NCBI GenBank assembly: GCA_944358825.1
Contig: CALVSA010000012.1
Span: forward strand, 1 to 36,251
Length of the DNA: 36,251 nt
Direction of reading: 5' to 3'
Source: an uncultured Bacilli bacterium
GTDB taxonomy: Bacteria; Bacillota_I; Bacilli_A; RF39; UBA660
Part shown: in pieces, positions 4,718-11,290 of the stretch
Layout: every line of letters begins with the position of its first letter
Numbering within the stretch: the stretch's first letter is position 1
Translations under genes and position numbers: made by a program
The notes under the pieces: model-generated
Told to the model about the DNA's origin: nothing
What the model saw: the letters and a program-made list of their open reading frames with translations, nothing else
The model's database searches: none

Positions 4718-5860
4718 ATGCTTAAGAAAATAGATAAACCACTACTTATTATTAGTTTTGCATTATTTGTCTTTGGATTAATAATGATTTTAAGTGCATC
4801 ATCTATGGAATCTTATATGAGATATGATGCTAGTCCTTATCATTATTTTATTAGACAAGCTATTTTCTTGGGCGTTGGTTTTGTTGCTTTTATTTTTGTT
4901 ATTTTTTTTCCTACTAAAAATTATAAACCACTTGCTAATATTTTAATTATAATTATTAGTTTAATTTTATTTGCTCTAACTTTATGGGGATATAGTGCTA
5001 ATTCTGCTCAAAGTTGGTTTTCTATTGGACCTTTTAATATTCAACCGAGTGAATTTACTAAAGTAATAATTATTATATATTTAGCTATTTATTATGAAAA
5101 ACATAAAAATGAGTTAGATAATCCATGGATATTGATAAAACCAATTTTATTTTGTGTTGTAATTGCGGCTTTAGTAGCTATTCAACCGGATTTAGGAACG
5201 GCGGGAATTGTTGTTCTTATGTCGCTTATTATATTTTATTCTCTTCCTATGTCAAAGAAGGCAAAATCTACTTTTAATAAATTATTTTTAGTAATAATAC
5301 TTGTATTTTTAGCGGTTTTAGTTACTACAAAAGGATCTTTTTTAAAGGATTATCAGCTTCAAAGATTTAATTTTTTAGATCCTTGTGATAGATATCAGGA
5401 AGAATCAGGATATCAATTATGTAATAGCTTTATTGCGTTTAAAAATGGAGGATTAACAGGACAAGGTGTAGGAGAGAGTACTCAAAAATATTTATATTTG
5501 CCAGAATCTTATACTGATTTTATATTTCCAATTATAGTAGAAGAGTGGGGGTTAATTGTTGGTATTTTAATTATTGTATTATTATTTGTAGTTTTATATA
5601 GATTATTAAAAATTGCAACGCATGCTCCTAATATTAGATGTAGTTTAATTGCATATGGAGTGTTTAGTTATGTATTTTTACATATTGCAATTAATTTAAT
5701 AGGTGTTATGGGTCTAGGACCATTAACGGGTGTTCCACTTCCGTTTTTGAGTTATGGTGGATCTTATGCTTTATCTTTATGTATTGCTTTAGGTTTAGCG
5801 CAAAGAGTGGCTATTGAAAGTAATATTGTAAAGAAGAGTAAAAAGTTAAAAAAGAAATAA
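4718..5860 (+). CDS. ftsW: FtsW/RodA/SpoVE-family glycosyltransferase (FtsW-like)
   Basis: A peptidoglycan polymerase with about ten membrane segments that polymerises lipid II together with a class B PBP. The family signatures are present: SASSMESY in the first loop, GPFNIQPSEFTKV, AIQPDLGTA, ESYTDFIFPIIVEEWG and the C-terminal PLTGVPLPFLSYGGS. The loop sequences look closer to FtsW than RodA, but with no partner PBP nearby the exact role (division, elongation or sporulation) is not fixed. Length (380) is normal. It ends the run of genes from 2914, and a terminator follows immediately. Confidence 0.9.
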   Translation: MLKKIDKPLLIISFALFVFGLIMILSASSMESYMRYDASPYHYFIRQAIFLGVGFVAFIFVIFFPTKNYKPLANILIIIISLILFALTLWGYSANSAQSWFSIGPFNIQPSEFTKVIIIIYLAIYYEKHKNELDNPWILIKPILFCVVIAALVAIQPDLGTAGIVVLMSLIIFYSLPMSKKAKSTFNKLFLVIILVFLAVLVTTKGSFLKDYQLQRFNFLDPCDRYQEESGYQLCNSFIAFKNGGLTGQGVGESTQKYLYLPESYTDFIFPIIVEEWGLIVGILIIVLLFVVLYRLLKIATHAPNIRCSLIAYGVFSYVFLHIAINLIGVMGLGPLTGVPLPFLSYGGSYALSLCIALGLAQRVAIESNIVKKSKKLKKK

Positions 5861-6144: not shown

Positions 6145-7917
6145 ATGGAAAAGAAAAAGAAGATAACAATCATTATTAGTGTGGTCGTATTTTTATTTAT
6201 TTTAGCAGTAGGTACAGTTGCTTTTTTTAGATGGAATAGTCCTACTAATACAGATGTTGGTTTTAATATAGATGGTTTAGATGCCTATATTATATATAAT
6301 AAAGGAACTGATGTATTAACAGGTTTATTAGAGCCAACTGATAGTTATGCTAATACGTCTATTAGTACAGAGATTACTTTATATAAAAATACAACTAAAA
6401 CATTATATGGACATATTTATTTAGATATAGAACAAATAGGAGCTAATTTAGCTAATGAACCTGCTTTAAAATGGGTAATAACATCAAATAATCAAGTATT
6501 AAATGAAGGTAATTTTGTAGGTAGTAAAGTAGGAGATTCAAAAGCATTAAAGATAAATATTCCTTTATCTCAAACAGAACAAAAATTTCAAATATATATA
6601 TGGTTAGATGAGAATATGGATATAAATGATGAAATAGAAGGAGAAACTTTATCTACAATAGTTAGAGCAGAAGCTAGTGAAGTTGAGTATCCGACAGATC
6701 CTAATCCACCAAAATTAGTGGATAACATGATACCAGTAATGTATAATGGAAGTAACTGGGTAAAAGCAGATAGTAGTAATACTAATTCAACATACAAATG
6801 GTACGATTATACAAATAAACAATGGGCTAATGCGGTACTAGTAAGTAGTACAAATAGAAATACATATGTAGAAGCAGAAGTAGGTACTGTAATACCAGAG
6901 TCTGAAGTGCTCGCATATTATGTATGGATACCAAGATATAAATATAAAGTATTTAATATAACTAAAACGATTGGAACGGATAGTTATAACGCTTCTACTA
7001 CTGGTATAGATATAGTATTTGAACAAGGTACAGCATCAACTGGAGAGATAAATTGTAATAACTATTCATTTGCAACTGCCACAAGTAGTGCAACAAACGA
7101 AACATGTAGTGGAACAAATGGACAGTATTATACACACCCAGCCTTTACATTTGGAGATACTGAACTAACAGGAATATGGGTAGGAAAGTTTGAAGTATCA
7201 GGAAGTACTACTCAAATAAAAACAGTTCCAAATGTATCAAGTTTAAGAAGGCAAACAGTAAGTAATTTTTATAGTGCAATCAAAAGTATGCAAAATAGTG
7301 GTAATGTATATGGTTTAAGTAGTGATACAAATAAAGTAGATTCACATATGTTAAAAAATTTAGAATGGGGGGCAGTAGCATATTTAACGCATAGTGATTA
7401 TGGAAGATGTAATGGAAGTAGTTGTGAAGAAGTAACAATAAATAATAATAGTAGTTATACAACAGGAGGAGGAAACTACGTATCTAATGTAGCCCAAAGT
7501 AGCACAGGAAATATATATGGAATATATGATTTATCAGGAGGAGCATTTGAATATGTAATGGGAAATATGTCAAGTGGAAGTGGGAGTTATACATATAATG
7601 CAAAATCAGCAGGAAGTAACTTTAGTTATAGCGCATCAACCGCTAAATATATAGATACATATGCCTATGGAACAAGTTCTGGTGATCAAACAGCGTACAA
7701 TCGAGCAAGATTAGGAGATGCGGCAGGAGAAGTAGTATCATCATCTTACACTGCATGGAATAATGATTACGCGGGCTTCGTCTACTCGTCTGCCCCGTGG
7801 TTCCGTCGCGGTGGCAACTGTAGCAATGGCTCTGGCGCGGGCGTGTTCTACTTCAACTACAGCGATGGTAATGCGGACTCTTTCTACTCGGCTCGTGCGG
7901 CTTTGCTTGCGCTTTAA
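6145..7917 (+). CDS. Membrane-anchored surface protein with a hypervariable C-terminal C-type-lectin/FGE-like domain (DGR target)
   Basis: 590 residues from the ATG at 6145 (AGGGAGA 8 bases upstream; an ATG at 6112 lacks a ribosome site and lies in the promoter). Residues 3-28 are a membrane segment or signal anchor. About 30-170 is a beta-rich region reminiscent of TasA/camelysin-type surface proteins. The middle contains VMYNGSNWVKAD and VLAYYVWIPRYKYKV. The C-terminus has GIYDLSGGAFEYVMGN and SAPWFRRGGN, typical of the formylglycine-enzyme/C-type-lectin fold used by DGR variable proteins. The last 48 codons are the variable region (separate entry). The catalytic Cys residues of true formylglycine enzymes are not recognisable, so a binding role is more likely than catalysis. 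A-rich codon use differs from the T-rich flanking genes and suggests the gene came from elsewhere. Confidence 0.85.
   Translation: MEKKKKITIIISVVVFLFILAVGTVAFFRWNSPTNTDVGFNIDGLDAYIIYNKGTDVLTGLLEPTDSYANTSISTEITLYKNTTKTLYGHIYLDIEQIGANLANEPALKWVITSNNQVLNEGNFVGSKVGDSKALKINIPLSQTEQKFQIYIWLDENMDINDEIEGETLSTIVRAEASEVEYPTDPNPPKLVDNMIPVMYNGSNWVKADSSNTNSTYKWYDYTNKQWANAVLVSSTNRNTYVEAEVGTVIPESEVLAYYVWIPRYKYKVFNITKTIGTDSYNASTTGIDIVFEQGTASTGEINCNNYSFATATSSATNETCSGTNGQYYTHPAFTFGDTELTGIWVGKFEVSGSTTQIKTVPNVSSLRRQTVSNFYSAIKSMQNSGNVYGLSSDTNKVDSHMLKNLEWGAVAYLTHSDYGRCNGSSCEEVTINNNSSYTTGGGNYVSNVAQSSTGNIYGIYDLSGGAFEYVMGNMSSGSGSYTYNAKSAGSNFSYSASTAKYIDTYAYGTSSGDQTAYNRARLGDAAGEVVSSSYTAWNNDYAGFVYSSAPWFRRGGNCSNGSGAGVFYFNYSDGNADSFYSARAALLAL
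7771..7917 (+). other. DGR variable region (VR) at the 3' end of the surface-protein gene
   Basis: At 7771 the sequence changes from AT-rich to GC-rich. By hand count the 48 codons to the stop have 86 of 144 G+C and only 16 A, and none of the 48 ends in A. Many codons are of NNC/NNT form at places where related proteins carry Asn runs (Cys-Ser, Gly, Tyr-Ser-Asp, Asp, Phe-Tyr), the pattern produced when template adenines in AAC/AAT codons are mutated by a DGR. Conserved frame residues (PWFRRGGN, AGVFYF, SARAALL) surround them. No template repeat and no reverse transcriptase is in the window. Confidence 0.75.
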
Positions 7918-7923
7918 GACTTC

Positions 7924-7959
7924 CGAGGGCTCGTCCCTCGTCGAACCACGAAGTGGTTC
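7924..7959 (+). other. Two tandem hairpins just after the variable region
   Basis: CGAGGG (7924-7929)/CCCTCG (7935-7940) with loop CTCGT, then GAACCAC (7943-7949)/GTGGTTC (7953-7959) with loop GAA. Known DGRs need a short hairpin or cruciform directly 3' of the variable region for efficient retrohoming; the second hairpin fits in size and place. The rest of 7960-8231 has no gene. Another GC-rich scrap lies at 8044-8075. Confidence 0.65.
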
Positions 7960-8231
7960 CCTTGTGAAACTGTCATTGAATTTCCCTCAAAATATAATAG
8001 AACAAGGGGAAGTAGTATAAAATTTTTGCAAGTTTTGGATATGCGTAGGCTCGCCCGAAGCGTGCTTTGTACCTTAACTTTTGTTGTTTTTATGGTATGA
8101 AAAATAAATATGTAGGATAATTATGACTATTAAATTTGATAATACATTATATAAATTCATGATGTCAAATTTTAGTAATTATATTGTAATTTATGTTTTA
8201 ATGTGTTAAATTATATTAAGAGGGTGATTAT

Positions 8232-11114: not shown

Positions 11115-11181
11115 ATCAGTGATATGTAATTATGTTTTCATATTTACATATAATAATAATGCTACTTAAAGTAGTAAAAAA

Positions 11182-11290
11182 GCGAGTGAAGCCAGCTCTA
11201 TAAATGGCAATTAACAAAGTGAGTGAAGCCAGCTCTATAAATGGCAATTAACAAAGTGAGTGAAGCCAGCTCTATAAATGGCAGCTAAAA
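11182..11290 (+). ncRNA. toxI: ToxI antitoxin RNA repeats (type III toxin-antitoxin)
   Basis: Three tandem copies of a 37-base unit begin at 11182, 11219 and 11256; the third diverges after ATGGCA near 11285. Each unit can fold as an H-type pseudoknot: in copy 2, GAG (11221-11223) pairs with CTC (11233-11235) and GCCA (11228-11231) with TGGC (11242-11245), interleaved. In type III systems the toxin cuts such a precursor into single units, and these pseudoknots wrap the toxin in a closed ring that blocks it. The position (promoter, repeats, terminator, toxin) is diagnostic. Confidence 0.9.

Follow-up and report, generated by a model that had tools for sequence, protein, structure and literature searches.

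The window, by which we mean the entire stretch of 36,251 nucleotides that was analysed, has a G+C content of 25.6% and carries, between an ftsW-like gene and ireB, an open reading frame for an anchored variable protein of 590 amino acids (6145–7917, plus strand, as are all features of the gene given here). At least 11 further genes or gene ends that bear a variable repeat (VR) elsewhere in this genome are homologous to it. The frame begins with a hydrophobic N-terminal anchor read from the sequence (MEKKKKITIIISVVVFLFILAVGTVAFF, 6145–6230), with similar anchors in paralogues, continues into a C-type-lectin/FGE-type domain with a variable face (6745–7914), and ends in its own VR (7771–7901). 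The invariant G+C-rich 3′ end of the VR (TCGGCTCGTGCGGCTTTGCTTGCGC, 7888–7912), which is identical in the template repeat (TR) described below, is a candidate initiation-of-mutagenic-homing site by analogy with phage BPP-1. Two hairpins are predicted to fold after the VR: GAGGG-CTCGT-CCCTC (7925–7939) and GAACCAC-GAA-GTGGTTC (7943–7959), the latter within a dispersed repeat that has copies elsewhere in the genome.

The switch in base composition at 7771 that the initial annotation had pointed out was borne out by our counts. Positions 7771–7917 have 58.5% G+C, contain 18 A among 147 nucleotides, and include no A-ending codon among 48 sense codons (22 end in C, 15 in T and 11 in G), whereas the rest of the gene (6145–7770) has 31% G+C and 248 A-ending codons out of 542. 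When a 144-bp frame was moved along the whole window, G+C content peaked at 7769–7770 (60.4%), and the next best value elsewhere was 45.8%. The G+C-rich stretch extends about 45 bases beyond the stop codon, into the dispersed repeat with its two short hairpins, and is therefore not strictly limited to the coding end. Elsewhere in the window, an intergenic 37-bp tandem repeat was seen at 11175–11283 (2.9 copies, 97% matches).

The C-type-lectin/FGE framework previously read from the translation was supported by structure prediction and by profile comparison, both of which lead to known variable proteins of diversity-generating retroelements (DGRs). An AlphaFold2 model of the variable domain (pLDDT 93) matched TaqVP (PDB 5vf4) best, at E=2e-9, followed more weakly by PorKN (7e-3) and then by Mtd, TvpA and FGE; the TM-scores of these matches were moderate (best 0.43), which places the domain in the same fold family with large differences. 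A profile built from homologues of the window protein also matched 5vf4 (E=3.7e-5), an entry confirmed to be a DGR variable protein of Thermus aquaticus (PMC6328139). FGE-sulfatase was weakly matched by 10 of 34 homologues, and Pfam, NCBIfam and PHROGs gave no curated domain with a meaningful score for the window protein. According to the model, the VR would form the 3′ end of a gene with a C-type-lectin fold, as in DGRs. The protein is presumably displayed at the cell surface, and its lectin/FGE-type face probably has a binding role.

We searched the genome to which the window belongs (1.27 Mb in 53 contigs, 91% complete) with the 3′ end of the target gene and obtained 19 matches. The near-identical, A-rich repeat anticipated by the initial annotation was found on contig C51, and a DGR-type reverse transcriptase (RT) was found on contig C5. 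The TR is present on C51 as two identical tandem copies of 156 bp (493–648 and 913–1068), 420 bp apart and outside the listed genes; it reads AACGCGAACTTCGTCAACTCG..., with framework codons and with AAC or AAT at the variable positions. The VR of the window differs from this TR at 23 of 38 template-A sites and at 6 of 96 others (p=7e-11). For the nine closest VRs pooled, 185 of 342 template-A sites were changed, as against 52 of 864 other sites (odds ratio 18, p=1.7e-73). A further VR on C21 was changed at 13/30 template-A and 0/73 other sites, and two that look older, on C13 and C23, at 17/30 and 13/27 template-A sites and at 14/74 and 9/58 others, respectively. Together, the nine closest VRs and these three bring the number of present or past target genes to at least 12. 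The trace of adenine mutagenesis proposed from the window alone thus has its counterpart in a non-coding TR, from which the VRs deviate chiefly at its adenines.

The RT on C5 is the only intact RT in the genome. It is of DGR type (phrog_1423, E=3.5e-119), and its translation contains YMDD and GNYTSQ; the SQ motif is a mark of DGR RTs (PMC3521204). The earlier statement that no RT lies nearby therefore holds within the 36,251-nt window but not genome-wide. Upstream of the RT, in one apparent operon, are genes for a bAvd protein (PF22296 above cut-off; phrog_3206, E=2.4e-20; NF033474 at 55 bits, below its cut-off of 80) and for a MutS domain I-like protein; our literature search found no work joining MutS-like proteins with DGRs. 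In a related locus, L175 (4303–5016), a single frame of 237 amino acids combines a MutS-I-like with an Avd part; the two accessory proteins appear to be naturally fused there. Behind the C5 RT is a cassette whose trailer is 81% identical over 157 bp to those on C51 and whose template core comprises only 26 bp, followed by a target gene truncated by the contig end. A second RT relative on contig C10 (L023; 4773–5198, minus strand), with GSVINQ replacing the SQ motif and adjoining a transposase-like frame, was rejected as the DGR RT, as it is degraded and of another type. A degraded RT relative in synteny with this copy occurs in a sister species of the same genus, G004 (contig C54, L134; 5687–6478, minus strand).

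In four relatives (L182–L185), cca, a lipoprotein gene, ypmB, dnaD and nth are contiguous. The end of C5 has the order cca-lipoprotein-MutS-Avd-RT-cassette-target, and C51 starts with a repeat known from behind some VR genes, then TR-TR-ypmB-dnaD-nth. Given this synteny, the simplest reading is that a single DGR has been inserted between the lipoprotein gene and ypmB, that C5 and C51 carry its two ends, and that the assembly breaks within its local target. The contiguity in the four relatives led us to reject, as the likely reading, a template acting far from its RT; the targets alone, and not the template, would therefore be remote from the RT, and the window gene is such a remote target. Target genes or their repeats are cut by the ends of several contigs of the genome (C3, C5, C19, C27, C30, C42 and C51), a picture that would arise if the assembly were interrupted by these paralogues or by cell-to-cell variation.

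The TR trailer has conserved blocks that are ordered as in the cis DGRs of related Bacilli (L173, L174 and L170). One 5-bp helix in the trailer is kept in 29 of 30 cells across six cassettes or sequences, with compensatory change at two pairs. Such covariation points to a structured trailer RNA, and with six sequences it is supportive and not conclusive. In BPP-1, the spacer recruits the RT-Avd complex (PMC12875486). An Rfam search of the template contig C51 gave no match.

The sister species G004 carries an orthologue of the window gene that adjoins ireB, and the IreB proteins are 90% identical. Between the two VRs, 20 of 40 template-A sites differ and all 94 other sites are the same (p=4e-13); the differences are thus not evenly spread but, in this comparison of two species, confined to A sites, as the initial annotation had predicted. 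The adjoining 1.1 kb from ireB onward are 85% identical, an identity that by itself would yield 0/94 with a probability of about 4e-7, a value that serves as a guide only, because constraint on the protein also acts on the VR framework. The pattern is as would be predicted from repeated overwriting by a template, and the orthologue pair provides a clean natural record of a remote target overwritten around or after the species split. About 15 VRs occur in G004, and a TR cassette (91% identical) precedes ypmB-dnaD-nth there. Beside the intact cassette, two emptied ones were seen on contig C61 (L133; approximately 4870–5090, minus strand), in which the 5′ hairpin is fused to trailer-like sequence without a template core. 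No RT was found in the G004 assembly, which is incomplete and also lacks the expected neighbour cca.

In both species, the dispersed repeat (CTTCCGAGGG...GAACCACGAAGTGGTTCCCTTGTG..., 7918–8060 in the window) directly follows several VRs; copies occur on contigs C36, C3, C51, C49 and C13 of the window's genome and at L141 and L138 in G004. It may be a small mobile element, or it may assist homing. One of the two hairpins after the window VR folds with a 3-nt loop, and the G+C-rich version of the post-VR hairpin follows only three of the nine closest VRs of the genome.

We consider it highly probable that a chromosomal DGR, with its core elsewhere in the same genome, between cca and ypmB-dnaD, has the window gene as a remote target. 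This core locus would comprise the MutS-I-like protein, bAvd and the RT, together with a local target gene and TR cassettes in tandem. The TR transcript, with its conserved and partly structured 3′ trailer, would be reverse-transcribed by RT-Avd with errors at adenines, and the cDNA would overwrite the local gene's VR and also, in trans, those of dispersed paralogues via the common G+C-rich 3′ end. The membrane-anchored protein would then present a lectin/FGE-type binding face on which scattered residues keep changing.

An intact RT frame, two clean TRs, and an orthologue VR with 0/94 non-A differences next to flanks that differ by 15%, which points to rewriting after or near the species split, make it unlikely that the DGR is frozen, with VRs written formerly and now evolving as ordinary paralogues. 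Such a state would, however, agree with the lack of most of the template core in the RT-side cassette and with the many non-A changes in the C13 and C23 VRs, and our comparison is one between species. That no retroelement is involved, and that the pattern arose solely through diversifying selection or through conversion between paralogous genes, is very improbable: there are many paralogues able to convert one another, and the variable sites encode exposed residues, but the changes coincide with adenines in a distinct non-coding template, both A positions of AAC codons among them, and occur almost nowhere else, conversion alone cannot create new bases solely at such sites, and DGR machinery is present in the genome. 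Foreign G+C-rich DNA, or an assembly artefact, joined to an AT-rich gene end can practically be dismissed despite the abrupt change in composition and a fragmented assembly with many contigs breaking inside target genes, since the frame runs on to the conserved end and the same arrangement recurs beside ireB in G004 and in at least 11 paralogues of the genome.

Returning to the DGR as a system writing remote targets, some paralogue VRs have five or more non-A differences each, and these need either a second, unassembled template or age; the VRs on C3, C19 and C21 have few such differences. The non-A differences are often common to several VRs (GGTAATGCG for GGAGATTCT, AAC for AGG), and some agree with the template of G004, which suggests at least one further template absent from the assembly. 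At linked non-A positions, the VRs of the genome fall into at least two types (e.g. GGAGATTCT versus GGTAATGCG; AGG versus AAC), whereas the assembled TR cassettes on C51 are two identical copies of one type; the same place in G004 holds one intact and two emptied cassettes. Tentatively, and with slightly more doubt than belief, we propose that one RT uses an array of several different tandem TRs to write a dozen or more dispersed surface genes, the targets switching or recombining template types over time.

Among 145 genomes of the taxonomic family, 68 contain the target protein family, with up to 26 matches per genome. Its presence was not associated with that of a DGR-type RT (phrog_1423, E≤1e-30, a profile that covers phage DGRs too), which was detected in 32 of the 68 genomes with the family and in 43 of the 77 without it. 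Five genomes (G029, G035, G050, G122 and G137) have 20 to 26 target-family matches, and none of them is listed with a strong match to a DGR RT. Expansion of the fold family seems to have been independent of DGRs. In G080, one local and three further VRs were changed at 15/39, 23/39, 19/39 and 18/38 A sites, versus 0/97, 1/97, 8/97 and 14/96 others, respectively, and G112 has one clear VR for its TR; remote targeting therefore occurs elsewhere in the taxonomic family. Among the four genomes looked at, that of the window and G004 stand out by the number of their VRs. The relatives are named in public records as uncultured Bacilli, and our literature search found no work treating RF39 together with DGRs.

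With these findings, an uncultured, small-genome lineage of Bacilli joins those bacteria in which a single retroelement apparently rewrites an entire group of anchored surface proteins. Surveys of metagenomes that consider RT-adjacent targets only, a stated limit of such work (PMC8144416), would miss most of these genes.

The nearest RTs that we found (54–56% identity) belong to cis DGRs of related uncultured Bacilli (L173–L175). These loci, which were compared by their cis arrangement, have Avd in all three cases, a MutS-I-like protein in L173 and L175, a TR trailer of the same design and the same target protein family, but unlike in the window's genome, the operon is immediately preceded by the target and TR. 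BPP-1 (PMC3240598, PMC12875486) shares the RT, Avd, a TR, adenine mutagenesis and a G+C-rich VR 3′ end, and its structured TR trailer and post-VR hairpin may have counterparts here; its single local target is a phage tail protein and its hairpin has a 4-nt loop, whereas here the targets are chromosomal and many, and only some are followed by a hairpin. The TvpA DGR of Treponema denticola (PMC4891356) is also chromosomal and non-phage, with one TR and several dispersed surface genes of FGE-type C-type-lectin fold. Isolates of T. denticola have two to seven targets (seven in ATCC 35405; PMC4891356), compared with at least 12 in 1.27 Mb here, and the present system differs further in its signs of more than one template and its non-lipoprotein anchors. 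In Thiohalocapsa PB-PSB1, which has 15 DGR targets (PMC10907252), and among cyanobacterial remote variable proteins (PMC7517822), remote targets match a TR elsewhere and action in trans is deduced as it is here; those systems involve several RTs and classes, or conflict-type multidomain targets, in contrast to the single intact RT and the one family of anchored surface proteins in the present genome. Trichodesmium has 18 TR/VR loci (PMC8867640), and distant VRs have been described in Pseudogulbenkiania (PMC3521204). Remote DGR targets are thus already known, and what may be new in the present case is how many targets such a small genome contains, together with its possible use of several templates.
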